Made by a program: the position numbers and the translations under genes. The notes beneath the pieces are model-generated. The model searched no databases. It was not told where the DNA came from and saw only the letters and a list, made by a program, of their open reading frames with translations. Shown here in pieces: positions 8,723 through 33,565 of a stretch of 33,565 nt of DNA (its first letter is position 1; the number at the start of each line of letters is the position of its first letter). Origin of the DNA: Victivallales bacterium (GTDB taxonomy: Bacteria > Verrucomicrobiota > Lentisphaeria > Oligosphaerales > Oligosphaeraceae); contig JAGCSE010000241.1 of assembly GCA_017964325.1 (NCBI GenBank), positions 1-33,565 on the forward strand. Reading direction: 5' to 3'.

Positions 8723-9619
8723 ATGTCTGCAAAAATCATTGATGGAAAGCAGGTTGCGTGTGACATTCGCGCAGAATTGAAATCGGAAGTGGCCCAATTG
8801 CAGGCTGAGCACGGCGTGACGCCTGGGCTGGCTGTCATATTGGTCGGAGATGACCCTGCGTCAAAATCGTACGTAACGGCGAAGGAAAAGGCGTGCACGG
8901 AAATCGGAATCTATTCCAATGACAATCGTCTTCCTGCGGATTTTCCTGAATCCGAACTGCTTGCATTGATTGAAAAGCTGAACAACGATCCGCGAATCGA
9001 CGGCATTCTCGTGCAGTTGCCGTTGCCGAAGCACATCGACGAAGACAAAGTCCTGACGGCAATCCGCCCCGAAAAGGATGTTGACGGTTTCCATCCCATG
9101 AACGTGGGGCGGATGCTGATCGGCGAACCATGTTTCCTCCCCTGCACGCCGCATGGCATCATCCAGTTGCTGCTGCGCAGCGGCGTGAAGACAGACGGTG
9201 CGCATGCGGTCGTCATCGGCCGCAGCAACATCGTCGGCAAGCCTGTCGCCAACATGTTGGCGCGGAAGGCCGAAGGCGGCAACGCGACGGTCACGCTGTG
9301 CCATACGCGGACGGTGAATCTGGCGGATTTCACACGCCAGGCGGACATTCTGGTGGTGGCCTCCGGCCATCCAAAGACGGTGACGGGCGACATGGTGAAG
9401 CCTGGTGCGACGGTCATCGACGTCGGCGTGAACCGCGTTCCGGACACTACGGCGGCGAAAGGCTACCGTCTTGTCGGCGACGTGGATTTCGAGAGCGCAA
9501 AGGAAGTGGCGGGGCTGATCACGCCCGTTCCGGGCGGTGTCGGCCCGATGACGATCACGATGCTGTTGTACAACACCGTTCAAAGCGCCAAATGCCGTGC
9601 ACAAGTGGAAAAAAAATGA
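8723..9619 (+). CDS. folD: Bifunctional methylenetetrahydrofolate dehydrogenase/cyclohydrolase
   Basis: A 298-residue FolD of normal length. Conserved parts include VGDDPASKSYVTAKEKAC with catalytic Tyr50 and Lys54, DGILVQLPLPKHID, KDVDGFHP, the Rossmann motif VIGRSNIVGKPVANML, and the C-terminal PVPGGVGPMTITML. It oxidises 5,10-methylene-THF to methenyl-THF with NADP and hydrolyses that to 10-formyl-THF in the cytosol, supplying one-carbon units for purines and fMet-tRNA. The 82-bp gap upstream contains a GGCAATATTGCC palindrome of unclear role. The stop overlaps the start of the sialidase-like gene (ATGA), an unexpected pairing that suggests the operon is held together by expression level rather than pathway. 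Confidence 0.95.
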   Translation: MSAKIIDGKQVACDIRAELKSEVAQLQAEHGVTPGLAVILVGDDPASKSYVTAKEKACTEIGIYSNDNRLPADFPESELLALIEKLNNDPRIDGILVQLPLPKHIDEDKVLTAIRPEKDVDGFHPMNVGRMLIGEPCFLPCTPHGIIQLLLRSGVKTDGAHAVVIGRSNIVGKPVANMLARKAEGGNATVTLCHTRTVNLADFTRQADILVVASGHPKTVTGDMVKPGATVIDVGVNRVPDTTAAKGYRLVGDVDFESAKEVAGLITPVPGGVGPMTITMLLYNTVQSAKCRAQVEKK

Positions 9620-10617
9620 AAATCATCACGAACGAGCAGATATTCGAGCCGCCATGGAGCGGGCATGTTCATGCCTCGACGTTGGTCGAGTTGAAGGATG
9701 GCGGCATTCTGGCGGCTTGGTTCCAAGGCACGAAAGAGAGTGCTCCTGATGTATGCATCGTTGGAAGTCGCCGGATTGGAGGTGTTTGGGAGAAGCCCCG
9801 TGTTTTAGCGGATATACCGGACGTTCCGCAATGGAATCCCGTCCTGCGGCGCGGCGACGACGGCCGTATCGTGTTGTATTTCAAAGTTTCATCTACAATT
9901 CAGGATTGGAATACGTATATTGTCGAAAGCTATGATGAAGGCGCGACATGGGATTCACCGCGCGAGTTGGTTCCAGGCGATGAAGGCGGTGGTCGCGGCC
10001 CCGTGAAGAACAAATGCCTGAAACTGTCGGACGGGACATGGCTCGCTCCCGCGTCCGTCGAACGCGGGGCGTGGGAGGCGTTCATCGATGTCAGCACGGA
10101 TGATGGGCGGACATGGACGCGCCGTCCGTTTTTCGTGAAACCAGACGTAAATACGGGAGACAAGCTTGGCGACGGCGTGTTGTGCGTCATCCAGCCAAGT
10201 CTTTGGCAGAGCGGGCCTTCCGATGTCTCCTGCCTGATGCGTAGCAACAACAAGGCGTTGTACCGCAGTGATTCGCATGACGGTGGGAAGACATGGAGTC
10301 CGCTTTACGACTCTGGCGTGCCGAACAACAACAGCGGCATAGATTTGGTGCGCCGCCGCGATGGGCGTATCGTGTTGATTTGCAACCCGATTGCACGAAA
10401 CTGGGGTGGCCGCAACCAGTTGGACGCATGGGTGTCGGAAGACGACGGCAAAACGTGGAAGGCGGATCTGACGCTGGCGTTCGATCCGGAGCCGAAGCAG
10501 CCAGACGGTCGCGCCACGGAATTTTCCTATCCTGCGGTCATCGAACTGAACGACGGGCGGTTGGCAGTGACGCATACGTGGAACCGCCAACAGATAAAGT
10601 TTTTGATATTGGATTGA
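9616..10617 (+). CDS. BNR/Asp-box sialidase-family protein
   Basis: A 333-residue six-bladed-propeller type protein with four clear Asp boxes: SYDEGATW (105-112), STDDGRTW (160-167), SHDGGKTW (220-227) and SEDDGKTW (274-281). The spacing of 50-60 residues fits one box per blade. Such proteins include exo-alpha-sialidases (GH33) and other glycan-acting hydrolases. No signal peptide is visible, so an intracellular role on imported sugars, or a non-sialidase function, is possible. The longer frame back to 9130 lies over folD and is a shadow. ATG 9616 overlaps the folD stop by ATGA and gives the natural N-terminus MKIITNEQIFEPPWSGHVHA. The next gene starts 16 bp later. Confidence 0.85.
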   Translation: MKIITNEQIFEPPWSGHVHASTLVELKDGGILAAWFQGTKESAPDVCIVGSRRIGGVWEKPRVLADIPDVPQWNPVLRRGDDGRIVLYFKVSSTIQDWNTYIVESYDEGATWDSPRELVPGDEGGGRGPVKNKCLKLSDGTWLAPASVERGAWEAFIDVSTDDGRTWTRRPFFVKPDVNTGDKLGDGVLCVIQPSLWQSGPSDVSCLMRSNNKALYRSDSHDGGKTWSPLYDSGVPNNNSGIDLVRRRDGRIVLICNPIARNWGGRNQLDAWVSEDDGKTWKADLTLAFDPEPKQPDGRATEFSYPAVIELNDGRLAVTHTWNRQQIKFLILD

Positions 10618-10633
10618 TGTCACGGTATTTGCA

Positions 10634-11650
10634 ATGGGCAAGAAAGTCATCAGTTGGGGATTGAAAATCCTTGGAATCGCATTGGCGATCGGGCTGCTCG
10701 TCTGGACAGTCCGTCGGACAGATGCGGATCCGCTGCATGAAATCATGCAGGCGAATCGTCCTATACTAATTCTTGCGTTGTTATGTGTTGGTTTGACGCA
10801 TATTCTGGCAGCGTATCGTTGGGGGGCGTTGTTGGCCGTTCAGGACATTCATCTATCGTATTGGACGCTACTTAAGCTGACATGGGTGGGGACGTTTTTC
10901 TCGCAGTTGATTCCAGGAGCCGTGAGTGGTGATTTACTGAAACTGGCATACGTCGCGAAAAGCGAGAAAGGCCGTGGAACAGAGGCATTTCTGACGATTA
11001 TTATGGACCGGGTCGTCGGCGTAACGGGGCTGTTTCTCGTTGCCAGTTTGGGTGGCTTGCTATTTATGGCGGGCCATTGGGAATTGGCGACGAGCAATCG
11101 CGTCATCGGCCTTTCGCTTCTCGTCGTTTTCGGCGGTGGGGCGGCGTCATTGGTTGGACTATGCGTATTCGTTTATCATAAGATGTTTATGAATTGGAAT
11201 TGGCTATCGAGAATCGTGACATGGCTTGGAAACCACCTTCCAGCCGCTGTCACGGGCATAGTCAAGCGGCTGTGCGATGGTGCGGATTTGTACAAGAATG
11301 CAAAGAAGACACTGTTGTTTGCCGTCTTGATATCGATGGTGATTCACGCATCATTGGGCAATGGGCTGTTTTGTGTTGGCAGGGCATTGGGAGAACGTGA
11401 CTTAAGCTATACAGCGTATTTTCTAAGCACACAGATTGGCAATGCGGTGACACTGGTTCCTGCGACGCCTGGCGGGCTGGGGTTGCGCGATTCCGTATCC
11501 TCTGCGTTTTTTGCGGCTTTGGATGCCGCTCCGTCTGAGAAAACAGGAGCGATACCGGTTGTCAATTCAATGTTGGTCGTATTTTGGGCGCTGGTCGGGG
11601 CGGTGTGCCTTGGCTGGATGAATACAAATTCTTTACGTAAAGACAGTTAG
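10634..11650 (+). CDS. Polytopic membrane protein of the LPG synthase/flippase-like (UPF0104/AglD) family
   Basis: A 338-residue protein with about eight hydrophobic spans. It begins with a helix at about 8-25, and later has TWVGTFFSQLIPGAVSGDLLKL, IIMDRVVGVTGLF and the C-terminal PATPGGLGLRDSVSSAFF. The SGDLLK, MDR and PGGLGLRD motifs are hallmarks of the lysylphosphatidylglycerol-synthase transmembrane region family. Members without the synthase domain are thought to move or modify lipids, and some work in glycolipid or glycan assembly. There is no soluble synthase domain here, so lysinylation is unlikely. It sits between the sialidase-like gene and an unknown protein, 9 bp from the latter, so a role in envelope glycan or lipid traffic is plausible. 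Confidence 0.75.
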   Translation: MGKKVISWGLKILGIALAIGLLVWTVRRTDADPLHEIMQANRPILILALLCVGLTHILAAYRWGALLAVQDIHLSYWTLLKLTWVGTFFSQLIPGAVSGDLLKLAYVAKSEKGRGTEAFLTIIMDRVVGVTGLFLVASLGGLLFMAGHWELATSNRVIGLSLLVVFGGGAASLVGLCVFVYHKMFMNWNWLSRIVTWLGNHLPAAVTGIVKRLCDGADLYKNAKKTLLFAVLISMVIHASLGNGLFCVGRALGERDLSYTAYFLSTQIGNAVTLVPATPGGLGLRDSVSSAFFAALDAAPSEKTGAIPVVNSMLVVFWALVGAVCLGWMNTNSLRKDS

Positions 11651-11659
11651 GAGAACGAT

Positions 11660-12862
11660 ATGGGAAATCATGAGATAAAAGTTATCCATCCGACAGGGGG
11701 ATGGGAGATTGTGCATCGTGCGGACTGCTGCGGCGGGCCGCTACGCTTAAACGTTGATGGTCAATTGGTTGTAAGTGGATTTGATACGTCATTCGACGGA
11801 ATCGGAAGCGAAGCGATGACCGTGAAAAAGGCGCGTGTTTATCACAAAAGTGGAGTTGCAGTGTTCGAAGGGGAAGGCGTGTTTCCGTCTGGTCCTGAGA
11901 CAGGAGTGTGGACGGCGTGTCGCTATGCGGGAAACATTGCACGCATCACGACGGATTTGAGCATCAAAAAGGAGACGGCGGTCAAACAGGGCATCCAATG
12001 CGGATCGATGACATTGCACGGCAAGTGGGTGTCGCTGATAACGGTGCCTGATTTTGCGAAAACAGCATTATCTGAAGGGCAAGTTATTCATTACGATGAG
12101 CTTCCGCTTGCATGGGTGTTTGAGCGTGAGGATGGCTTCAAGCTGGAGATTGATACGGGTTTCGATTTATGGCGATGGAAGAACAGCGTGGAGCCTGGCC
12201 ATGCGGTCGCAGATGTGGAAATATTTGCGGATCATGTTGATTTCAAGCGACATCTACTAGTTGTGACAAATGATAGTGAAGAAGGCATCCAGCCGACTCC
12301 GCGCGACTACCGTTTCTATTCGCAGTTGGCATGGAGCACACCTGCGCTTTATGCAGATGTAACAAATATGCCCGAACTGACGCATTTGGAAGTCTTGCCA
12401 AAAGGAAAAGGCGTTGATGTAAAAGCATTAGGTGAAAAACCTGCGGTATCAATTGATTTTTCAGAACTTACAGCTTTGGATTCCATGCACGTAACCCGTG
12501 ATGACAAGTTGGAGAAAGAGCTTTGCTGGGAGTGCAATAATACGAAGCTCGCGGCAAAACGAATCATCCGCCAGTTGGCGGCGAAATCCGCAGAGGGATT
12601 TCTACAAATTGAAAACGGGATGACACCCTCTGTTTGTGACAATGGAAAGCATGTTGACCGCCCTGGCAAGACTGTGCCGCATTGGGACTTGAACGGTATC
12701 ACGTCGTTTGCGGTCTGGGCAAGGCAATGCCTTGGAGACGGTTGGCAAGTCGTCGTGAAGCAGCCTGAGCCATGGGCTGGATTACCGTCACTGCGTGGGT
12801 TGTTCGCGCCAAATGGCTTCTCGAAGGCCGATTTGTCTGTGGATGAGGAAAACACGAAATAA
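11660..12862 (+). CDS. Unrecognised 400-residue protein
   Basis: I do not recognise this protein. It is soluble-looking, has no signal peptide or transmembrane segment, and is rich in alternating hydrophobic residues typical of beta-sandwich proteins (for example PLRLNVDGQLVVSGFDTSFD and AVADVEIFADHVDFKRHLLV). Several Cys and Trp are spread through it, with a CWECNN motif in the C-terminal third. AGGAG precedes ATG 11660, and the gene is tightly placed between a flippase-like membrane protein and an alkaline-phosphatase-superfamily enzyme, so it very likely belongs to the same pathway. Alternating glycan-related neighbours suggest a carbohydrate- or lipid-linked role, but this is context only. 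Confidence 0.7.
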   Translation: MGNHEIKVIHPTGGWEIVHRADCCGGPLRLNVDGQLVVSGFDTSFDGIGSEAMTVKKARVYHKSGVAVFEGEGVFPSGPETGVWTACRYAGNIARITTDLSIKKETAVKQGIQCGSMTLHGKWVSLITVPDFAKTALSEGQVIHYDELPLAWVFEREDGFKLEIDTGFDLWRWKNSVEPGHAVADVEIFADHVDFKRHLLVVTNDSEEGIQPTPRDYRFYSQLAWSTPALYADVTNMPELTHLEVLPKGKGVDVKALGEKPAVSIDFSELTALDSMHVTRDDKLEKELCWECNNTKLAAKRIIRQLAAKSAEGFLQIENGMTPSVCDNGKHVDRPGKTVPHWDLNGITSFAVWARQCLGDGWQVVVKQPEPWAGLPSLRGLFAPNGFSKADLSVDEENTK

Positions 12863-12889
12863 TGCTGTAAATCGGAACAACAGCGAATC

Positions 12890-14041
12890 ATGAATAAACA
12901 TTGTGACATTTTCATGTTCATCGACGCCCTTGGATGGGATGTCGTGAGCCGCTATAACTTTCTGGCGGATTTTCCGCACAGGAAACCTGTGACCATGCAG
13001 TTCGGCTATTCTTCGACGGCGATTCCGACGATTTTGACAGGCGCCCAACCGTCGGAACACGGTCATTTGAGCCTATTTGCGTATTCGCCTGAACATTCTC
13101 CGTTCAAAGGACTTGCGCGTTTAGGGCGTTTTCTGCGACCAACCTCTTTTTGGGAACGTGGCCGAGTCCGCAACGTGTTGACACGGATAGCACGGAAATA
13201 TTACGGCTTCACAGGCTATTTCAATCTGTACAGCGTGCCATTTGATCGCATCGGTCTTTTGGACTATATGGAAAAAGATGACATCTTTGCGAAAGGCGGT
13301 CTTTTACCTTGCAAAAATTTACGTGACATATTGGAAGAGAAGAAGATACCATACCATATCTCCGACTGGCGCAAAAGCGAGGAAGAGAACCTTGCAGCGG
13401 CGACTACAGCGATAATCGAGGAAAGAGTCGAGTTCATGTTCATCTACACAGCGGCGTTGGATGCGCTTCGCCATGATCATTCGCTTGACGAGACGGTCGT
13501 TCGCGATAAGATACTATGGTACGAATCACGTATAAGAGAGCTGTTGGAGACGGCGAAATCCGCGTATGACAGTTTTACATTCACGGTCATCAGTGACCAT
13601 GGCATGACGGATTTGACGCAGGCGGTTGACATGATAAACGCCGTTGAATCAACAGGACTTGTGTTCAACGACGACTATGCGGCGTGTTATGATTCGACAA
13701 TGTTCCGAGTCCATTATCTGAAAGAAAGCTCGCGTGATGTCATTCATGGTGTCGTAAACGAAAAAACATTTCCTGGTCATTGGCTAAGTGACGATGACCT
13801 TGTGAAATATGGCATTGATTTCGCTGACCGCCGCTATGGAGATGATATCTTCCTCATGAAGCCAGGCGTGCAGATTGTGCCTTCGAACTTGTGTCGCAAG
13901 ACATTGCATGGGATGCATGGATACGAACCGTCTCATGAGAATTCATTGGCAGCGGTGATTTCGACAGCGGAAATTCCCAATTATGTCCATGAAGTAAAAG
14001 ATTATTTCAGGATGATGACGGAGAGGTATTTTAGACATTAA
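12890..14041 (+). CDS. Alkaline-phosphatase-superfamily phosphodiesterase/phosphotransferase-like enzyme
   Basis: A 383-residue protein of the type I phosphodiesterase/nucleotide pyrophosphatase branch. It shows metal-ligand Asp12 in MFIDALGWD, a Ser/Thr nucleophile stretch FGYSSTAIPTILTGAQPSEHG, TVISDHGMTD with paired Asp/His ligands in the middle, and the late GMHGYEPSHEN with a further His. The order matches two-metal enzymes of the family, which cleave phosphodiester or phosphomonoester bonds or transfer phospho-groups. No signal peptide is visible. Substrate is unknown: nucleotides, lipid head groups and sugar phosphates are all handled by relatives. It follows the unknown 400-residue protein by 27 bp. 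Confidence 0.8.
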   Translation: MNKHCDIFMFIDALGWDVVSRYNFLADFPHRKPVTMQFGYSSTAIPTILTGAQPSEHGHLSLFAYSPEHSPFKGLARLGRFLRPTSFWERGRVRNVLTRIARKYYGFTGYFNLYSVPFDRIGLLDYMEKDDIFAKGGLLPCKNLRDILEEKKIPYHISDWRKSEEENLAAATTAIIEERVEFMFIYTAALDALRHDHSLDETVVRDKILWYESRIRELLETAKSAYDSFTFTVISDHGMTDLTQAVDMINAVESTGLVFNDDYAACYDSTMFRVHYLKESSRDVIHGVVNEKTFPGHWLSDDDLVKYGIDFADRRYGDDIFLMKPGVQIVPSNLCRKTLHGMHGYEPSHENSLAAVISTAEIPNYVHEVKDYFRMMTERYFRH

Positions 14042-14094
14042 GATATTAGTAATAAATAAGTTATATAAAAGTCAAAAAAAATGGAAGGACACCC

Positions 14095-15024
14095 ATGGCG
14101 AAATTCCCTGTAATGGATGAAAGTTGGCGCATTGCGCGCCTGAATCCCGCGAAGCATGTTGCTCATTGCGTATTGGATACGGATACGTACAATGAAGTTG
14201 ATGACCAATTTGCGCTAACGTATGCCGTGCTCGCGAAAGAGTCCGTGCAACTGGAGGCTGTCTATGCGGCGCCGTTCCACAACAGCCGTTCGACGGGGCC
14301 TGAAGACGGCATGGTAAAGAGCTATGAAGAGATCCATCGCGTGTTGGAGCGCCTTGGCGGCGTGCCTGACGGATTCGTCTTCGAAGGCTCCCGCAAATGG
14401 CTGAAGGATTCTGATGGTCCTGTGGAAAGCCCTGCGGCGCAGGATCTGATCAAACGCGCTATGGCGCGGCCAGATGATGCGGAACCGCTGTATGTGCTGA
14501 CCATCGGAGCACCGACGAACGTGGCCTCCGCCCTGCTGATGGAACCTGAACTTGTGAAGAAAATCGTGGTCGTCTGGCTTGGCGGACAGCCGCTTGAATG
14601 GCCGACGGCGAAAGAGTTCAATCTTTTCCAGGATGTGAAGTCGTCGCAGGTTTTGTTTGATTCCGGTGTGCCGCTCATGCAGGTTCCCTGCACGAATGTA
14701 GCGGAACATCTGCGTGTCTCATTGCCGTTTTTGGACACTTATCTGAAAGGCAAGAGCGCCATCGGCGATTATCTGACGGAAATTGTCCATCACTATACAA
14801 ACGATCCATATTGCTGGTCCAAAGTGATTTGGGATATTTCGACGGTGGCGTGGATCGTAAACGCCGGCTGGTTCAACACGACGTTGACACAGAGCCCCGT
14901 GCTACATGACGATTTCCGCTACAGCCATGATGCGAACCGCCATCTGTTCCGCGTGGCAACACATCTTTCGAGAGATGTGATCTTCCGTGATTTGTTCAAC
15001 AAGATTGGAACCGCAGGAAAATAG
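14095..15024 (+). CDS. Nucleoside hydrolase-like protein (inosine-uridine hydrolase family)
   Basis: A 309-residue protein with the family's N-terminal calcium-binding motif in a variant form, DTDTYNEVDDQFALTYA (28-44), instead of the usual DTDPGxDD. The TIGAPTNVASALLMEPELVK segment matches the family's loop that carries a substrate-binding Asn and helix, and VVWLGGQPLEWPTAKEFNLF corresponds to the mid-domain Gly-rich and Asn region. Classical members split ribonucleosides into base and ribose. Variant-motif members like this are common in glycan-rich bacteria, and their true substrate may be another N-glycoside. AAGGA lies just upstream of ATG 14095. It is the eighth gene of the rightward train. 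Confidence 0.8.
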   Translation: MAKFPVMDESWRIARLNPAKHVAHCVLDTDTYNEVDDQFALTYAVLAKESVQLEAVYAAPFHNSRSTGPEDGMVKSYEEIHRVLERLGGVPDGFVFEGSRKWLKDSDGPVESPAAQDLIKRAMARPDDAEPLYVLTIGAPTNVASALLMEPELVKKIVVVWLGGQPLEWPTAKEFNLFQDVKSSQVLFDSGVPLMQVPCTNVAEHLRVSLPFLDTYLKGKSAIGDYLTEIVHHYTNDPYCWSKVIWDISTVAWIVNAGWFNTTLTQSPVLHDDFRYSHDANRHLFRVATHLSRDVIFRDLFNKIGTAGK

Positions 15025-15087
15025 GAAAACGGAAGTACCGTCCACGCAATATGTTGCATGGGGCAGGAGAGAGCTGGAGCTAATGGC

Positions 15088-17208
15088 ATGTCGTTTGAAA
15101 AATTGAAATCCCTGATATCTGAAGCCGCTGAAAAGGCAGACGATGCGGTTGTTGAAAAAAAACCTGAAAGACGTGAGTCGCAGGAAGAAATGGAGCCACG
15201 CAAGCCTGTGACAGTCCAGCAGATGATGCTTGGCATGACGGTAGTGTTAACCGTGCCCGCCAGCGTGCTGATTGTCTTTTTCATCATCCAGTTTTCAATG
15301 ACGATGGGACGGCTGGAGGCGTTGTTGCAAAGTCCATTTCTGGTGATGAGCAGCACGCTGTTATTTGCCGTCATCATCGGTGCGGTGATGTGGGGGCTCA
15401 TGACCATTTACTCTTACTGGACGGATTTCATCACGGCACGATTCAAGGTGTCAAAAATCATTGCGTGGTTGATGGTTGCTCCGATTGCACTGTTAGGGCC
15501 GTTCTACTATTTCGGTTTCACAGGCGTGCTTTCGTACAAACTGAAAATACGTCGTAGCCTCATCATGAGCATCCCTGGCTTTTTGGCTGGCTATGGACTA
15601 TTGATGGAGATTGACCAGATTCTGCTCGGTGAGTTTTCACCAAGCTGGGACCACGCCCTGATGACACCCGTCATTCTTGCCGTATCGTATGTTTCCGGGC
15701 TCGTGACCCTAAAGGAACTTTCGAAAGAAAATTTCAAGAAAAAGACATGGGTGTTGGCGGGAGTGCTTCTGGGCATTTGGATCGTCCTGCATGGCGGGCT
15801 GTGGATTCATACGGCCATTCTTGAACAACGGATCAAGATTTTAGAAACGTTTCTGAAGCCTGCTCATCCCATGGACGCCGCAGGAATGCGATCCGCCTAT
15901 TACCATGACGGGCAGATGGTTGCGACAAAAGACGGCTTGCTCGTGAAAGCCGCCGCCGCCGCAAAGGAGCAACTGGCCAAGGTGGATGAAACAAAATCTT
16001 CCAGCGTGAATGACGGCAAGGAACAGCCCGTGGCGGCGACGGTCGAGCAGAAGGAGGCTCCGCAAAAACAGGTAGACGTTCCCGTCATGCCTGACGCGGC
16101 GTTGCTGTTGGCTTTGGACGAAGGGCAGCCAGACGACAAGACGCAGACGGAACTGGTCGGCTGGCTCTCCGAAAACGAAAAGTATTTCGCGGACATGGAT
16201 TTGGCGACGACTGGAAGCCTGTTCAAGGCGGAAATCGTCGGCGGGCAGGAAACCGACAATCAGAACGAAGAGGTCTTCAAGACGCTGATCGCCTGGATGG
16301 GAATCTACAAGACGCGGATCCATCTGGCGTTGCAGAACAATGTTCCAGAGCAGGCATTGGACTGCCTGAAACGCATGACATGGCTGCGGGACGTCGCGTT
16401 GGACGATCCTTACATCATGGCTTGCGGAACATGCAATTATCTGGAACTGATGCGATTAGGATGCTATCCGGCCATCTTGGCCAGTGGTTTGCTGACGGAT
16501 GCGCAATTGGCGGAACTGGCGATGGAACTGGCTGAAGACGAAGCGAAATGGAACAAACGCGCGGGGCGGGGCGAATGGGCCACGATGGCGTGGTACATGT
16601 CCCATGTGCAGGAAGGCCAGAAGACTGTCGTGACCATAGGCAACGCGGCCGGTGAAATCGTCTTGGGGCTGTTGGGGACTGTTCGGCTGTGGTTGCTGCG
16701 GCGGGATGGCGCATGGATCATGAAATATCTGAACGAGAAGACGGATGCCGCCCGCCCCGCCAACGATTTCACGGAATTGGAGCGCATCAGCGGGATTATG
16801 CCGTCCATTCCAATTTACGTGACATATTCGAAGATGTTGCTGGGAACGCGACATCAGTTCATATCTGCCATCGCCAAGCAGCGTACGGTTCGCGCGGCGA
16901 TCGCCGTGGAACGATACAAGTTGGCGCATGACGGTCACAAGCCGTCGGCGCTGACGGAGCTCGTCCCGCAGTATCTATCTACCGTTCCAATAGATCCGTT
17001 TGACGGGGGTGAACTGAAATACCGCCGCGATGATTTCTTCGACGTGAAGCCGAATCCACAGGAGCCTGAAAAGACGGTCGAACAAATGTGGCGCGGCTAT
17101 CAGATTTATTCCGTCTCAATGGACAAGACCGACAACGAAGGCCGAATCTACGTCAAGAAAGATGACGAAGAACAAGGGGATTTGGGCATTTCCGTACGGG
17201 AGCAATAG
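15088..17208 (+). CDS. Large membrane protein with pseudopilin-like C-terminus, function unknown
   Basis: A 706-residue protein. An N-terminal acidic/basic soluble stretch (1-45) is followed by about six transmembrane helices (about 50-255), then an Ala/Glu-rich linker and a long helical soluble region. The last ~80 residues contain AIAVERYKLAHDGHKPSALT, LVPQYLSTVPIDPFDGG and GYQIYSVSMDKTDN. The YxxxxGxxPxxLxxLVPxYLxxxPxDPFxG signature resembles the C-terminal segment of type II secretion pseudopilin GspG, a module found fused to varied membrane proteins in PVC bacteria. I chose ATG 15088 because GGAG lies 9 nt upstream; ATG 15058 has no ribosome site. Function is unknown; an envelope role is likely. 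Confidence 0.65.
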   Translation: MSFEKLKSLISEAAEKADDAVVEKKPERRESQEEMEPRKPVTVQQMMLGMTVVLTVPASVLIVFFIIQFSMTMGRLEALLQSPFLVMSSTLLFAVIIGAVMWGLMTIYSYWTDFITARFKVSKIIAWLMVAPIALLGPFYYFGFTGVLSYKLKIRRSLIMSIPGFLAGYGLLMEIDQILLGEFSPSWDHALMTPVILAVSYVSGLVTLKELSKENFKKKTWVLAGVLLGIWIVLHGGLWIHTAILEQRIKILETFLKPAHPMDAAGMRSAYYHDGQMVATKDGLLVKAAAAAKEQLAKVDETKSSSVNDGKEQPVAATVEQKEAPQKQVDVPVMPDAALLLALDEGQPDDKTQTELVGWLSENEKYFADMDLATTGSLFKAEIVGGQETDNQNEEVFKTLIAWMGIYKTRIHLALQNNVPEQALDCLKRMTWLRDVALDDPYIMACGTCNYLELMRLGCYPAILASGLLTDAQLAELAMELAEDEAKWNKRAGRGEWATMAWYMSHVQEGQKTVVTIGNAAGEIVLGLLGTVRLWLLRRDGAWIMKYLNEKTDAARPANDFTELERISGIMPSIPIYVTYSKMLLGTRHQFISAIAKQRTVRAAIAVERYKLAHDGHKPSALTELVPQYLSTVPIDPFDGGELKYRRDDFFDVKPNPQEPEKTVEQMWRGYQIYSVSMDKTDNEGRIYVKKDDEEQGDLGISVREQ

Positions 17209-29193: not shown

Positions 29194-29236
29194 CGGATCA
29201 AAAAAATGGATAAATGCAAGTTGTGGCAGGTTTTAT

Positions 29237-29271
29237 GTATCAATTACGCCTTTCGTACTCTTGATTGATAC
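29237..29271. repeat. Inverted repeat GTATCAAT/ATTGATAC
   Basis: Perfect 8-bp arms at 29237-29244 and 29264-29271 with a 19-nt spacer, just left of the 11-bp tandem repeats. The spacing suits a two-site protein-binding element. Confidence 0.6.
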
Positions 29272-29289
29272 ACCAACATAATCTCTTTT

Positions 29290-29394
29290 TAGACCTATTT
29301 TAGACCTATTTTAGACCTATTTTAGACCTATTTTAGACCCATTTTAGACTTTCTTTAGACCCTTTTAGGCCCTTTTTGGCCCTCTTTTAGACTC
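29290..29394. repeat. 11-bp tandem repeat, about ten units
   Basis: TAGAC or close variants start at 29290, 29301, 29312, 29323, 29334, 29345, 29356, 29366, 29377 and 29388, so the step is 11 bp with one 10-bp step. The first four units are identical (TAGACCTATTT) and later ones decay. The period is near one helical turn, so all units face the same side of the DNA. The array spans the 3' end of the winged-helix pseudogene. Confidence 0.85.
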
Positions 29395-29792
29395 TTTACG
29401 ACATATTGTGCAGAGTTTTTTACACCTTCCATCAGGAGTTCATTGTTCCGCACCATCCTTTTCAGCAGAGCAGAAGTCGACTTGGCATCCAGATGGCACA
29501 ATTCCATGACATCTTTCTGTCGGATTCTGCCTTATTGCCGAACAAGCTTCAGCACCATCTGTTCCTGTTCGATGCGGTTCAGCCCTATTTGCCGGACGTA
29601 TTCGGTATCCTTGCCAGCACGGCGATAAACGGAAGCACCAAATAGATAGACACGCGAAATGCCACGCCCCTGTGTTTCAACGAGGCCGCGTTCGACAAGA
29701 GACTCCACACAGGCGCGGGCGTCATCAGGAGGACGTTGCAGAGCTTTTGCTAGATCGCCGATGACGAGGCGTCGGCTATCGCGCTGTGTTTT
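29355..29792 (-). pseudogene. C-terminal remnant of a winged-helix (AlbA_2/AAA_4-type) transcriptional regulator
   Basis: The minus strand reads as a continuous two-winged-helix C-terminus: LVIGDLAKALQRPPDDARAC, VESLVERGLVETQGRGISR, then YRRAGKD and IGLNRIEQEQMVLKLVRQ. An in-frame TAA follows at 29532-29534, and then GRIRQKDVMELCHLDAKSTS and ALLKRMVRNNELL to the stop at 29355-29357. Upstream there is an in-frame TAG at 29793-29795, and no N-terminal ATPase or Schlafen-like domain is found. So the gene is truncated at its 5' side and interrupted once. The order HTH, YRR and EQMVL, HTH is typical of AlbA_2-domain regulators; the family name is my recognition and not certain. Confidence 0.65.
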
Positions 29793-29824
29793 CTACCTTT
29801 GTGCTGTTTTTTTTCACACCATAT

Positions 29825-29852
29825 TTGACATGACGTTTTTCATTGTTATATT
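29825..29852 (+). promoter_or_regulatory. Promoter of the ArsR-type regulator gene
   Basis: A perfect -35 TTGACA (29825-29830) and a -10 TATATT (29847-29852) with 16-bp spacing, immediately before the operator and the arsR-type gene. Confidence 0.7.
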
Positions 29853-29857
29853 TAAGA

Positions 29858-29875
29858 GTTGAACATTCATTCAAC
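29858..29875. promoter_or_regulatory. Operator O1 of the ArsR-type regulator
   Basis: GTTGAACATTCATTCAAC is an inverted repeat right after the -10 box, in the place expected for autoregulation. The left half equals the TTGAACA half-site of the downstream array; the right half differs at two positions. Confidence 0.65.
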
Positions 29876-29894
29876 CATTAAACACACGAAGACC

Positions 29895-30248
29895 ATGGCT
29901 GGCAGAGCAGATCACGACAACGAAACCGTCCACAAGGAGATTGTGGACGAAGTCCGCGCCAAGATGTCTCCCAAAGAGGAGTACATCCAGATGGCCGTGC
30001 TGTTCAAACTGTGCGGCGACGGAACGCGCGCGCAGTTGCTCCACGCCCTGCTATTCCGTGAACTTTGTGTGTGCGATTTGGCGGAACTGCTCGGCGTGAC
30101 GAAATCGGCGGTCTCCCACCAGCTCAAGGCGCTCCGCCTTGCGAATCTGATCAAGTTCAGACGGGACGGGCAGAACGTCTATTATTCGCTTGCGGACGAG
30201 CATGTCCGTGCCATTATTCGTACGGGATTCGACCACATCAAGGACTAG
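29895..30248 (+). CDS. ArsR/SmtB-family metal-sensing repressor
   Basis: A 117-residue winged-helix repressor. An N-terminal His/Glu-rich arm leads to LFKLCGDGTRAQLLHALLF, the CVC motif in RELCVCDLAELLGVTKSAVS (as in ArsR/CadC alpha-3 sites), the recognition helix SAVSHQLKALRLANLI, the wing FRRDGQNVYYSL, and a last helix DEHVRAIIRTGFDHIKD. The last helix fits the alpha-5 zinc-site pattern DxHx10HxxE/H except that Asp replaces the final ligand. So both an alpha-3 thiol site and an alpha-5 site are possible. Such repressors leave DNA when bound to Zn, Cd, Co, Ni or As. ATG 29895 is preferred over TTG 29859, which lies inside the operator. The gene precedes an operator array and feo genes, so control of iron uptake is likely but unusual for this family. 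Confidence 0.9.
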   Translation: MAGRADHDNETVHKEIVDEVRAKMSPKEEYIQMAVLFKLCGDGTRAQLLHALLFRELCVCDLAELLGVTKSAVSHQLKALRLANLIKFRRDGQNVYYSLADEHVRAIIRTGFDHIKD

Positions 30249-30265
30249 GAGTTTTTTATTCACCA

Positions 30266-30295
30266 AGGCGGGCTTTGGCCCGCCTGATGATTTTT
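30266..30295 (+). terminator. Intrinsic terminator H1 after the ArsR-type gene
   Basis: Stem AGGCGGGC/GCCCGCCT with loop TTTG (30266-30285), followed by TTTTT at 30290-30295. It ends the arsR-type transcript and begins the first array unit. Confidence 0.8.
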
Positions 30296-30304
30296 GTCAA
30301 ATGA

Positions 30305-30320
30305 TTGAACAGTTGTTCAA
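30305..30320. promoter_or_regulatory. Operator O2
   Basis: Perfect 7-2-7 palindrome TTGAACAGTTGTTCAA, the best match in the array to the SmtB/ArsR consensus. Confidence 0.75.
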
Positions 30321-30361
30321 CTAAACAATTAGGAGTGTCAAATAAAGGACTGAAGAAAAAG

Positions 30362-30400
30362 ATGTCAGGCAATACGGTTGCGGGTTCAGGCCCGCAATAA
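30362..30400 (+). other. Possible 12-residue leader peptide ORF
   Basis: ATG 30362 opens MSGNTVAGSGPQ and stops at TAA 30398-30400. The last seven codons and stop lie across hairpin H2, so translation would melt the hairpin. An AAGGA lies about 14 nt upstream, so start strength is doubtful. This could be an attenuation leader or chance. Confidence 0.3.
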
Positions 30401-30408
30401 TCTTTTTG
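30378..30408 (+). terminator. Hairpin H2 with T-rich tail
   Basis: Stem TTGCGGG/CCCGCAA with a 6-nt loop (30378-30397), then TAATCTTTTT. It looks like an intrinsic terminator inside the array. Confidence 0.7.
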
Positions 30409-30415
30409 CCATTAT

Positions 30416-30433
30416 GTTGAATAGATGTTCAAC
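30416..30433. promoter_or_regulatory. Operator O3
   Basis: GTTGAATAGATGTTCAAC, an 8-2-8 palindrome with one mismatched pair. Confidence 0.7.
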
Positions 30434-30525
30434 TATAAAATTATCTATATGTAATCTATCAGTGTAACCATGAGGCAAAGGCTTTGCTAACAAGGGCTTC
30501 AGCCTTCAAAATCAATATCATATAA

Positions 30526-30541
30526 TTGAATATATGTTCAA
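30526..30541. promoter_or_regulatory. Operator O4
   Basis: TTGAATATATGTTCAA, a 7-2-7 palindrome with one mismatched pair; its first base is the last base of a TATAAT hexamer (30521-30526). Confidence 0.7.
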
Positions 30542-30595
30542 ATATAAAATTTGAAAAATATCAATATAGGAGGAATTGATTACAGTTTCCGTAGG

Positions 30596-30625
30596 TTGCG
30601 GGCTCTGCCCGCAAAAATCTTTTTG
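30596..30625 (+). terminator. Hairpin H4 with T-rich tail
   Basis: Perfect 8-bp stem TTGCGGGC/GCCCGCAA with loop TCT (30596-30614), followed by AAATCTTTTT. It is the strongest stem in the array and sits upstream of the feo genes. Confidence 0.75.
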
Positions 30626-30633
30626 CCATATAA

Positions 30634-30649
30634 TTGAACTATTGTTCAA
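30634..30649. promoter_or_regulatory. Operator O5, nearest the feo genes
   Basis: TTGAACTATTGTTCAA with one mismatched pair, beginning at the last base of a perfect TATAAT (30629-30634). It is the most likely control site for the feo genes. Confidence 0.7.
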
Positions 30650-30748
30650 TCATTCAGATATAGATGCCTGTCGGGTGACAGGATAATCCATCAAGCTCCG
30701 GGGAAGTTTGTGATAGCTCCCTCAAAGACCAGAAAGGAACAGGATGAC

Positions 30749-30886
30749 ATGAAAACAAGTCAATGCCCGTATGGAAATCGCAGGATTTCCGCGAAAACAA
30801 ACGTGCGCAGGGTGGTTTGTCCGCCTGTCCGCAAAGTCCCATTACAGGATTTGGTTCATGGGATTTCGGGAGGTGGCCGAAAATGA
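30749..30886 (+). CDS. Small 45-residue ORF coupled to the first feoA
   Basis: ATG 30749 has an AGGA element about 5 nt upstream and opens 45 codons beginning MKTSQCPYGNRRISAKTNVR, with Cys6 and Cys24. Its TGA (30884-30886) overlaps ATG 30883 of the first feoA as ATGA, the usual sign of translational coupling. It is basic and has no transmembrane segment. Small Cys-containing proteins are common in feo operons, but I cannot match this one to a known family. It may instead be an upstream coupling ORF with no function of its own. Confidence 0.45.
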   Translation: MKTSQCPYGNRRISAKTNVRRVVCPPVRKVPLQDLVHGISGGGRK

Positions 30887-31095
30887 TGCCTTTGAATTTG
30901 GCAGAGCCTGGCGAGGAGCAGATGATCCGCAAGATAGGCGGCTCCCCTGAAGTTCGCAAACACTTGGCGGACTTGGGGTTCATCGCAGGGGGGACGGCGA
31001 CGGTGGTTTCAGCCCTGAACGGCAATCTGATTGTCAAGGTAAAGGAATCACGCGTCGCGCTCAGTGAAGAATTGGCCCGTAAAATAATGGTATAA
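30883..31095 (+). CDS. feoA: FeoA-type SH3 domain protein, first copy
   Basis: A 70-residue FeoA. The SH3-like fold shows LAEPGEEQMIRKIGG, HLADLGFIAGGTATVVSALN, NLIVKVKESRVALSEELAR and a C-terminal IMV. FeoA binds or regulates FeoB, the ferrous iron permease, on the cytoplasmic face. The start is ATG 30883, with GGGAGG 9 nt upstream. A longer frame from 30763 has no ribosome site and lies over the small ORF. A second, distinct FeoA follows 11 bp after the stop. Confidence 0.85.
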   Translation: MMPLNLAEPGEEQMIRKIGGSPEVRKHLADLGFIAGGTATVVSALNGNLIVKVKESRVALSEELARKIMV

Positions 31096-31106
31096 GGAGC
31101 ACGATC

Positions 31107-31334
31107 ATGAGAACATTGAAAGAAGTAAACATCGGTGAAACAGTGAAAGTCGCGAAAATCACAGGGGAAGGCCCCATCAAACGGCGCATCATGGACATGG
31201 GCATCACGAAAGGCACGGAAATCTACGTCCGCAAAGTCGCGCCGCTGGGCGATCCGATCGAAGTGACGATCCGCGGCTACGAGTTGAGTCTGCGCAAGGC
31301 GGACATCGATATCATTCAGGTGGAGGACAAGTAG
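31107..31334 (+). CDS. feoA: FeoA-type SH3 domain protein, second copy
   Basis: A 75-residue FeoA with TLKEVNIGETVKVAKITGEG, PIKRRIMDMGITKGTEIYV, VAPLGDPIEVTIRGYELSLR and IIQVEDK. It keeps the full Gly-Asp-Pro and RGYELSLRK features typical of the FeoA closest to FeoB. It differs clearly from the first copy, so the two are not recent duplicates. TAAGGAG lies upstream of ATG 31107, and the feoB start follows 26 bp after the stop. The pair probably has distinct contacts with FeoB (inference). Confidence 0.92.
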   Translation: MRTLKEVNIGETVKVAKITGEGPIKRRIMDMGITKGTEIYVRKVAPLGDPIEVTIRGYELSLRKADIDIIQVEDK

Positions 31335-31360
31335 TAAACCGCGCATCAGGAGGCATTAAT

Positions 31361-33565
31361 ATGAAAGACAACAAGACGATACGCATCGCCCTCGCGGGCA
31401 ATCCGAACAGCGGCAAGACGACTCTTTTCAATGCGTTGACCGGCTCCAACCAATTCGTCGGCAACTGGCCCGGCGTGACGGTTGAGAAGAAGGAAGGCAA
31501 GCTGAAGAAGCATGACAATGTCATCATCACGGACCTGCCAGGCATCTATTCGTTGTCGCCATACACGCTGGAGGAAGTCGTCGCTCGTAACTACCTGCTG
31601 GATGAAGCTCCAGAAGCCATTCTTAACATCATCGATGGCACGAACTTGGAGCGCAACCTCTACTTGACGACGCAATTGGCGGAACTCGGCATCCCGATGG
31701 TCATCGCCGTAAACATGATGGACATTGTCCGCAAGAACGGCGACAAGATCAATTTCGAAGAGCTTGCTCGCGAACTCGGCTGCAAGGTGTTGGAAGTCTC
31801 CGCATTGAACAACGACGGTGTCATGGAGGCCGCCGAAGCGGCCATCGAAGCCGCTGAAAAGTCGCATCCGCTTCCAATGCACACGTTTTCAGGCCCTGTC
31901 GAACATGCCATCGCGCACATTGAAGAGGCTGAATTGCACGACATGCCGTCGGAACGGCAACGGTGGTACGCCATCAAAATCTTCGAACGGGATGAAAAGG
32001 TTTTGGCCAAACTGAATATTCCCGCCGACAAGATGCATCATATCGAACAGGACATCACGGCGGCGGAAAAGGAACTGGACGACGACGCGGAGTCCATCAT
32101 CACGAGCGAACGCTATGTCTATATCGCCGAACTTCTTAAGGGCAGCTACCATAAGGCCAACAAAGGCGGCATGACGGTTTCGGACAAAATCGACAAGATC
32201 GTCACGAACCGCTGGCTGGGCCTCCCGATTCTGGCCGTCGTTATGTTCCTTGTATATTACATCGCAATGGTTACTGTCGGCCAGCAGGCGACCGACTGGG
32301 CCAATGACGGCCTCTTCGGCGACGGCTTCCATCTCTTCGGCATCGGTTCCGCCGCGGCTGAAGAGAAGGCGGAGGAGTTCGCGGATGCAAAGAACGCCGT
32401 CGATGCCTTCGTGACGGAGGAGAAGGCCGCCGACGTGTTGGCCAAGATCGATCCCGAGGCGGAGGATTTTGACGCGGAGGTCGCCAAGACGGCCTTGGCC
32501 GCCTACGCCGCCACCGTCCCGAAGGACGCGAAGGCAACGCTGGAAATTGAAAATGAAGAGGATCTGTCCGTTGAAGAAGCCGAATTCACAGGAGAGGATC
32601 TGGCGAACGCCATTCCCGTCATGGAGAAATACGGCTTCGCTGAGCCTGATCCCGCGGACGAAGGATGGTGGGTCCCCGGCGTTCCCGTCATCGTAGAAAA
32701 AGTTTTGGATAAAATGCACTGCGCGGATTGGCTGAAGGGGCTGATTCTCGACGGTATCGTGGCGGGTGTCGGCGCGGTCTTGGGCTTTGTGCCGCAGATG
32801 CTTGTGCTGTTCCTGCTGCTGGCCTTCCTGGAGGCGTGCGGCTACATGGCGCGTATCGCCTTCGTGCTCGACCGCGTGTTCCGCAGATTCGGCCTCTCCG
32901 GCAAGAGCTTCATTCCGATTCTCGTCGGCACGGGCTGCGGCGTCCCCGGCATCATGGCCTCCCGTACTATCGAAAGCGAACGCGACCGCCGCATGACGAT
33001 CATCACGACGACATTCATCCCCTGCGGTGCGAAGACCCCGTTCATCGCCTTGATCGCGGGCGCGATCTTCGGTGGTTCGCCGTGGATCTCCACGGGTGCC
33101 TATTTCCTCGGCATGGCCTCCATCATCGTTTCCGGCATCATCCTGAAGAAGACGAAAATGTTCGCAGGCGATCCCGCTCCGTTCGTCATGGAACTGCCCG
33201 CCTACCATCTGCCGACCGTCGGCAACGTCCTGCGCTCCATGTGGGAACGTGGCTGGAGCTTCATCAAAAAGGCTGGCACAATCATCCTGCTCTCCACCAT
33301 TTTCGTCTGGTTCACAACGTATTTCGGCTTCGCCGAAGACGGCTTCCGCATGCTTGAGGAAGAGGAAATCGACCATTCGCTGCTGGCGAAGATCGGCGCC
33401 GGCATCGCATGGATTTTCGCACCTCTCGGCTGGGGCAACTGGCAGGCGGCCGTGGCCTCCATCACGGGATTGGTCGCGAAGGAGAACATCGTCGGCACGC
33501 TGGGCATCCTCTACAAGAACGGCGCATCCGAAAGTGTTTACGGCAACTTGCATGCGGCCTTCACG
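31361..33565 (+). CDS. feoB: Ferrous iron permease FeoB (3' end beyond window)
   Basis: 735 codons are present without a stop, so the last part is missing. The N-terminal G domain has G1 GNPNSGKTTLF (13-23), the NQFVGNWPGVTVEKKEGKL switch segment, G3 DLPG, G4 NMMD and a G5-like SAL. A helical GDI-like region follows. The permease has TM1 LGLPILAVVMFLVYYIAMVT, then LDGIVAGVGAVLGFVPQMLV, the gate-like motifs LVGTGCGVPGIMASRTIESE and FIPCGAKTPFIALIAGAIFG, and a later LVAKENIVGT. It imports Fe2+ across the inner membrane. Between TM1 and TM2 lies an unusual acidic Ala/Glu-rich insert of about 115 residues (about 321-436). CAGGAGG lies before ATG 31361. Codons are strongly C-ending, unlike genes at the left end of the window. 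Confidence 0.95.
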   Translation, partial: MKDNKTIRIALAGNPNSGKTTLFNALTGSNQFVGNWPGVTVEKKEGKLKKHDNVIITDLPGIYSLSPYTLEEVVARNYLLDEAPEAILNIIDGTNLERNLYLTTQLAELGIPMVIAVNMMDIVRKNGDKINFEELARELGCKVLEVSALNNDGVMEAAEAAIEAAEKSHPLPMHTFSGPVEHAIAHIEEAELHDMPSERQRWYAIKIFERDEKVLAKLNIPADKMHHIEQDITAAEKELDDDAESIITSERYVYIAELLKGSYHKANKGGMTVSDKIDKIVTNRWLGLPILAVVMFLVYYIAMVTVGQQATDWANDGLFGDGFHLFGIGSAAAEEKAEEFADAKNAVDAFVTEEKAADVLAKIDPEAEDFDAEVAKTALAAYAATVPKDAKATLEIENEEDLSVEEAEFTGEDLANAIPVMEKYGFAEPDPADEGWWVPGVPVIVEKVLDKMHCADWLKGLILDGIVAGVGAVLGFVPQMLVLFLLLAFLEACGYMARIAFVLDRVFRRFGLSGKSFIPILVGTGCGVPGIMASRTIESERDRRMTIITTTFIPCGAKTPFIALIAGAIFGGSPWISTGAYFLGMASIIVSGIILKKTKMFAGDPAPFVMELPAYHLPTVGNVLRSMWERGWSFIKKAGTIILLSTIFVWFTTYFGFAEDGFRMLEEEEIDHSLLAKIGAGIAWIFAPLGWGNWQAAVASITGLVAKENIVGTLGILYKNGASESVYGNLHAAFT

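Follow-up and report, generated by a model that had tools for sequence, protein, structure and literature searches.

Between an ArsR-type repressor gene and the feo genes of a gut Victivallales bacterium lies a tandem array of four 16-bp palindromes, very probably ArsR operators, three of which lie at the same distance from a preceding GC-rich, T-tailed hairpin. Modules of this kind recur before feo in four relatives. The layout suggests, tentatively, that the array acts on transcripts already under way. The window analysed is a stretch of 33,565 nucleotides, and all features described below lie on its forward (+) strand.

Layout of the arsR-feo region

The arsR promoter (TTGACA, 16 nt, TATATT; 29825-29852) matches the consensus at 11 of 12 positions. 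Operator O0 (TTGAACATTCATTCAA; 29859-29874), which is presumed to be autoregulatory, lies upstream of arsR and 6 nt 3′ of the −10 box. The gene itself (29895-30248) encodes a 117-residue ArsR/SmtB repressor, whose winged-helix domain matches PF01022 at 55.9 bits (cut-off 22) and NF033788 at 91.8 bits (cut-off 55). An 11-bp tandem repeat, TTTTAGACCTA, is present upstream of arsR in 9.7 copies (29287-29392).

The intergenic region, about 0.5 kb long, contains in succession the 8-bp hairpin T1 (30266-30285), continued by GATGATTTTTG; palindrome O1 (30305-30320); hairpin T2 (30378-30397), continued by TAATCTTTTTG; O2 (30417-30432); T3, a degenerate hairpin lacking a T-run (30492-30506); O3 (30526-30541); T4 (30596-30614), continued by AAATCTTTTTG; and O4 (30634-30649). 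A TATAAT hexamer begins 5 nt upstream of O4 and overlaps its first base. Seventeen nt past O4 a structured leader begins (30666-30751), followed by a small ORF of 45 residues (30749-30886) whose stop overlaps the start of the first feoA gene (ATGATG). The first feoA (30883-31095; PF04023, on a longer ORF), the second (31107-31334; PF04023) and feoB (31361-33565; TIGR00437 above cut-off), inside which the window ends, complete the locus. The profile matches thus agree with the original prediction in placing an ArsR-type gene before the array and feo genes after it. Matches of FeoB to its family are split by an insertion of about 120 residues, at residues about 320-445.

The palindromes are of the form TTGAAYA-NN-TGTTCAA, with one deviation in O4, and follow each other at 112, 109 and 108 nt. 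In units 1, 2 and 4 a GC-rich hairpin and T-run precede the operator, with 19 nt between hairpin and operator in each case, and these three of the four units have the GC-rich stem and T-run of an intrinsic terminator. Unit 3 does not. A mechanical search found only weak hairpins there and picked one lying 38 nt from the operator; the gap is 19 nt only if the weak hairpin at 30492-30506, placed by eye and missed by mechanical terminator searches, is accepted. Four units of about 110 bp, each composed of hairpin, T-rich tail and palindrome, had been predicted; all four palindromes and the full units 1, 2 and 4 are present, but the hairpin of unit 3 is degenerate. With this correction the array stands as an observation. 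The T-rich tails of units 1, 2 and 4 do not directly adjoin the stem: the T-run begins about 5 nt past the end of Watson-Crick pairing (in unit 2 this becomes 2 nt once a G-T pair is counted). T-runs starting about 5 nt past the stem are unusual for strong terminators. In the relative G001, hairpins with a T-run were found at 13 of 189 predicted gene ends, with T offsets of 0-9, a sample too small for comparison.

The clustering exceeds what shuffled sequences produce. Allowing two mismatches, the palindrome gives 14 strand-matches in the window (10 at the arsR-feo locus, 4 elsewhere), against a mean of 0.59 and a maximum of 5 in shuffled sequence, and five operators (O0-O4) fall within 0.8 kb. 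The 500 nt after arsR hold four operators and three terminator-operator pairs; 3000 dinucleotide shuffles of this interval never yielded such a pair and never more than two operators.

The palindromes as operators of an ArsR subfamily

To identify the palindrome, arsR loci were sampled by taking the best 80 of 579 confirmed loci and two loci from viral contigs (68% identity to the query). In this sample, 77 loci outside Lentisphaeria had enough upstream DNA, and 23 of them have a TGAAY-N4-RTTCA match in the 160 nt preceding arsR, where 0.09 would be expected at the rate seen elsewhere in these loci. The sampled loci contain 24 such sites in 13,090 nt of upstream DNA versus 4 in 568,917 nt elsewhere, and the stricter TTGAA-N6-TTCAA precedes arsR in 16 of the 77. 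The motif thus has the character of an ArsR/SmtB operator, an imperfect TGAA..TTCA inverted repeat at arsR-family promoters. Because it is enriched upstream of other arsR genes, the palindrome can be read as the operator of this ArsR subfamily, and O1-O4 are, on this comparative evidence, very probably ArsR sites. The proposed match to the SmtB/ArsR operator was therefore borne out.

Genome-wide searches with one mismatch allowed, in which each site counts on both strands, gave 18 rows in G001 against 25 for a reversed-pattern control and 33 against 22 in G024; array and second feo operon aside, a palindrome regulon in these two genomes is near chance. Further operator sites may exist in G022 and G028, since there the one-mismatch palindromes exceed the control (26 versus 4 rows and 17 versus 3). 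Exact palindromes outside the arrays of G001 and G024 fall within one shared ORF, which we take to be threonine synthase.

Conservation of the module in relatives

Among 197 genomes of the class, six contain arsR matches at E up to 1e-35. In four of these, the draft genomes G001, G024, G028 and G022, arsR precedes feo, G022 having two arsR copies; in the other two the gene (54-56% identity) precedes P1B ATPases. Recurrence of the unit upstream of feo in other genomes, as anticipated, was thus observed: the four relatives keep one to three units, namely three each in G001, G024 and G028, one before feo in G022 and another at its second arsR, which with the four of the window makes 15.

The gap between hairpin and operator was determined mechanically, a script selecting, from the 70 nt that precede each operator, the best Watson-Crick hairpin. 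The chosen hairpin lies 19-20 nt before the operator for 11 of the 15 array operators versus none of eight promoter-type operators (see below), which have weak stems only. The exceptions are unit 3 of the window (38 nt), G028 units 2 (45 nt) and 3 (6 nt) and unit G022b, which yielded no Watson-Crick hairpin of 4 bp; read by eye, the four gaps become 19, 23, 7 and 17 nt. Operator spacing, nearly constant in the window, ranges across genomes from 85 to 164 nt. The suggestion that geometry is conserved while sequence diverges consequently applies to the hairpin-operator gap, kept while the spacers turn over, but not to the distance between operators. Matched changes on both palindrome arms (TTGAG..CTCAA) occur in G001 unit 2 and G028 unit 1. 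The sequence of the gap varies; in most array units of the window and of loci L103, L105, L106 and L104 it retains TTTTTGCC, or something close, with 6 nt separating this motif from the operator. Shared descent explains part of the geometry, since the feo module is present in only five genomes, the window included.

When the whole array was used to query 29 genomes of the family, its first and last modules matched G001 and G024 at 89-94% over 63-70 nt. No colinear match to the DNA between these modules was found in the 29 genomes; its matches were confined to an out-of-register stretch in G024 (69%, E 1.5e-7), 35 nt covering an operator in G028 (E 0.0037) and further weak hits. The spacer between modules 1 and 2 (L001:4425-4545) is 98% identical between G001 and G024 over 121 nt, above the 91.5% identity of their arsR genes, and has no counterpart in the window. 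A dispersed repeat or mobile element was considered and rejected: array DNA gives some match at E up to 1 in 23 of the 29 family genomes, but the non-orthologous matches are weak and strong ones occur at orthologous loci only. Downstream of the array, the 45-residue ORF (30749-30886) has a recognisable counterpart in G001 and, as read by eye, seems to be fused to feoA in G028 (L106:5054-5374).

Array operators lack the promoter layout of other ArsR sites

Eight operators could be assigned to promoters: those of six arsR genes (window, G001, G024, G028 and both G022 copies, the two G022 sites being imperfect palindromes picked by eye from their position) and those of the second feo operon of G001 and G024. 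This operon lies in trans (L192:1500-1900 on G001:C1; L193 on G024:C126) and its promoter-operator is laid out like the arsR promoter. In all eight cases the best sigma-70 match places the −10 box at exactly −12 relative to the operator start; at none of the 15 array operators is this position occupied by one. Best sigma-70 scores were 8.5-11.3 for the promoter-type class, the 8.5 of G028 being within background so that agreement there is by position, and 6.0-9.5 for the array operators, as compared with a mean of 7.91 and a 95th percentile of 9.50 in 500 base-shuffles. In G001, G024 and the window a TATAAT hexamer overlaps the final operator, and in the window another overlaps O3; these score 9.0-9.5. 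Inspection of the arrays by eye for other promoter types revealed nothing consistent. O1-O4 thus lie between arsR and feo on one strand and lack the arsR-type promoter layout. As all eight promoter-type sites have that layout, the array may act on polymerase coming from arsR.

The repressor and its probable iron targets

In ArsR/SmtB metalloregulators the CVC motif of helix alpha-3 and the D-H-H-D/E positions of helix alpha-5 provide metal ligands, and an N-terminal Cys pair forms part of the alpha-3N site of CadC, a Cd/Pb sensor of P1B-ATPase operons. The alpha-3 and alpha-5 positions are present here: C58, C60, D101, H103 and H114 are invariant in 22 aligned sequences, and the window protein has D117. 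The N-terminal pair is not; no Cys was found in residues 1-30 of the five feo-linked ArsR proteins. A C-x(0-4)-C pair was found at the N-terminus in 63 of 78 other loci. Within the sample of the best 80 of 579 loci plus the two viral ones, a P1B ATPase of Zn/Cd type starts within 2.5 kb downstream of arsR in 67 of 82 (nine of the ATPase ORFs were family-checked, five matching heavy-metal ATPase models and four E1-E2 ATPase). No P1B ATPase lies downstream of the five feo-linked arsR genes, which are followed by feo. The proteins linked to feo and hmuS form one clade (6 rows, support 100/99) nested with Oscillospiraceae-type proteins, in a midpoint-rooted tree of few columns whose bootstrap had not settled. 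They share with the CadC/SmtB-type repressors of P1B Zn/Cd ATPases the fold, the CVC and alpha-5 positions and the sequence and position of the operator at arsR; they differ in their target, feo (and hmuS), in the loss of the N-terminal Cys pair and in the extra operators behind downstream terminators. These comparisons suggest that the regulator derives from Zn/Cd-exporter repressors and now sits at feo, the second feo operon and hmuS.

The hmuS connection comes from G022, where L104 (G022:C25), positions 9100-17200, carries two arsR-operator-leader modules about 7 kb apart, the first before feo. The second is followed by ORFs for a pseudopilin-like protein and a protein without family assignment, then by an ExbB-like gene and a gene for a 1380-residue protein. 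To this protein PF02514 was assigned, with NCBIfam matches to CobN and BchH below cut-off; its best solved match is the heme dechelatase HmuS (1051 bits, versus 370 for ChlH and 344 for CobN). In G001, feoB is followed by a pseudopilin-like ORF and by a remnant of the C-terminal part of HmuS. HmuS is described as removing iron from heme in gut bacteria (PMC12583661). With arsR modules before feo and hmuS-like genes and a promoter-operator at a second feo operon, the targets seen belong to iron acquisition.

The DtxR C-terminal domain PF02742 was detected in 20 of the 29 family genomes but in none of the four arsR-feo genomes; five further family genomes also lacked it. Treating the genomes as independent, although they are not, the chance of such absence in four of four is 0.005. 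Eight of the 20, at 11 loci in total, have the DtxR domain upstream of feoB, on its strand and 369-845 nt from it. FUR-family proteins occur in G001, G024 and G028 and were not found in G022; genes may be missing from these draft assemblies. ArsR/SmtB repressors usually release DNA upon metal binding, and the regulatory sign is therefore a puzzle, as metal-triggered release is the wrong sign for an importer.

A candidate regulatory RNA before feo and hmuS

Copies of the leader were recognised in the window (30666-30751) and at L103:6866-6951, L105:2600-2685, L106:4971-5056, L104:9126-9214 and L104:16674-16748, the element being common to feo and hmuS modules. It consists of hairpins P1 (30667-30682) and P2 (30700-30723) and a 23-nt stretch, TCAAAGACCAGAAAGGAACAGGA (30722-30744), that ends just before the start codon and is kept in all six copies except for one deleted A in G028. 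In the alignment (six sequences, five of them distinct, from which the structure itself was drawn, with P1 of G022b misaligned), both sides have changed in 8 of 15 pairs and 94.4% of cells are paired, falling to 38-62% when the alignment is slid by 1-3 columns. Folds of single sequences were mostly no better than shuffles (z of 0.17, −1.14, −2.52, −0.87 and 0.42), so that the support consists of covariation on a structure derived from the same sequences. The leader is thus a candidate regulatory RNA.

The possibility of a more widespread element was rejected. Model R1, run over the 197 class genomes with stricter filters and 22 candidates scored per genome, matched at E up to 1 in 41 genomes, but only arsR modules scored well (five, at 64.7-104.7 bits); the next two matches, both at 30.2 bits (E 0.0016 and 0.0025), look like chance. 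A pattern match in G010 was weak. Rfam, searched over 29200-31400, gave only RF03027, at 20.5 bits (gathering threshold 46.7) and away from the leader (30264-30333).

Control of elongation or termination as a model for the array

We propose that transcription initiated at the autoregulated arsR promoter, which would continue into feoA-feoA-feoB if unhindered, is gated serially by the array. A complete module would comprise an intrinsic-terminator-like hairpin and, 19-20 nt on, an ArsR operator. With ArsR bound, polymerase leaving arsR would meet a terminator with a roadblock right behind it, and because of this combination the leaky arsR transcription needed for repressor supply would be kept from feo. 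Once ArsR leaves the DNA in response to its presumed ligand, the roadblocks would be gone and polymerase would pass the terminators, which would be of moderate strength. With modules in series the block would be multiplied, so that background would be low and the threshold steep. Bound ArsR would block polymerase that has passed the hairpin and may hold it near the T-run: a roadblocked polymerase has its RNA 3′ end about 14 nt short of the obstacle, and combining this figure with the 19-20 nt gap would put the stall close to the first T of the T-run. That the array controls transcription at elongation or termination is a reading to which we give not quite an even chance. The graded switch with stacked operators of the original prediction is possible in this form, as a graded or steep switch placed at elongation/termination. 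A fuller scenario, rather doubtful as a whole, would have an exporter-derived ArsR displacing DtxR in a rumen Victivallales lineage, its bound dimers, each 19-20 nt past one of as many as three or four terminators, keeping feo shut by stalling polymerase in the T-run and so aiding termination, and the number of modules setting threshold and steepness.

The main rival, and a live one, holds that feo is transcribed from a weak promoter at the last unit. The junction of an arsR terminator and a feo promoter-operator would have been duplicated in tandem, feo transcription would start at the last unit, the upstream copies would be redundant or raise repressor occupancy, and elongation would not be controlled. 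The TATAAT hexamers that overlap O4, the last operators of G001 and G024 and O3 of the window speak for this reading, the leader beginning 17 nt past O4 suits a start inside or just after that operator, and the single-module G022 shows just such a simple layout; but the hexamers have no −35 at the proper distance, score within background and are missing from G022a and G022b. The repressor's other sites, moreover, follow a different and rigid layout, and a promoter needs no hairpin at a kept distance. This rival is possible, though on balance we consider it rather unlikely. Short repressor-controlled RNAs, each running from an operator to the next hairpin, had also been suggested. Most intervals do end in a hairpin with a T-run, and the first spacer of G001 and G024 is better conserved than their arsR genes; however, the operators lack the arsR-type promoter layout, the window spacer has no colinear match in G001 and operator-to-operator length is not kept. 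The idea of a series of such metal-controlled transcripts was thus not sustained, and we regard short RNAs as very unlikely.

The remaining two readings make the hairpins, or the whole array, incidental. Operators could raise the local ArsR concentration, or dimers could bridge O0 and O1-O4 in a loop or filament, for which five closely placed operators and the 108-112 nt spacings of the window speak; the 85-164 nt spacings of the relatives show no fixed helical phase, we know of no bridging by ArsR/SmtB dimers, and this reading appears improbable. Neutral tandem duplication without a function of its own would fit a copy number ranging from one to four and the weak or decayed hairpins of unit 3 of the window and of units 2 and 3 of G028. 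Yet the operators remain palindromic, with both arms changed in match, while the spacers are lost, and neutrality is accordingly given little credence.

Relation to known systems

The nearest parallel to the proposed serial gate is synthetic. In engineered arsenic reporters (Stocker 2003, cited in PMC3918153), as in the array, an autoregulated arsR is followed by an extra ArsR operator and an output gene, and this second site downstream of arsR is reported to lower background in E. coli (PMC3918153), an effect referred to as roadblocking (PMC10310618). These constructs differ in being artificial, in having one extra site and no coupled terminator in the descriptions cited, and in responding to arsenic rather than driving iron uptake. 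ArsR is listed among repressors that roadblock elongating polymerase, and the natural examples PurR, GalR, CcpA and CodY likewise stop it when bound (PMC10310618). For LacI, roadblocking is reported to vary with how often the promoter fires and how fully the roadblock is occupied (PMC4132739). In Chlamydia trachomatis the trpR-YtgR operator-trpBA arrangement likewise consists of a repressor gene, an intergenic operator for a metal regulator and target genes, but YtgR represses an alternative promoter in an iron-dependent manner, and no repeated hairpin-operator module is described in the account cited (PMC7755916).

Neither a terminator-operator array of this kind nor direct ArsR control of feo was found in the open-licence PubMed Central literature, among the matches listed. 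The nearest report connecting the ArsR family with feo, among those matches, is a transcriptome remark on FeoA in work on Streptococcus suis CadX (PMC11430099). CadX is likewise an ArsR-family exporter repressor, of a cadmium-efflux operon; in the account given there it has no feo operator and no intergenic array, and the effect on FeoA is not described as direct (PMC11430099). A paper on Feo of H. pylori names only arsRS, and ArsR and Feo are treated separately in PMC11277574. The parts of the array are therefore of known kinds; what appears new, in the open-licence literature and among the matches listed, is that they are coupled in series at a conserved distance and that an exporter-type repressor is placed on an iron importer. 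To our knowledge, no natural roadblock repressor has serial sites at a fixed distance behind terminator hairpins.

If the proposed gate is real, it would be a natural and repeated version of the circuit by which engineers lower leakage, in which two known devices, the intrinsic terminator and the repressor roadblock, are coupled by a kept distance. The copy number of one to four among relatives would offer a ready series on how serial gates set a threshold. For these bacteria, it would mean that an ArsR-family protein regulates iron uptake, through feo, a second feo operon and hmuS, in genomes in which no DtxR domain was found.
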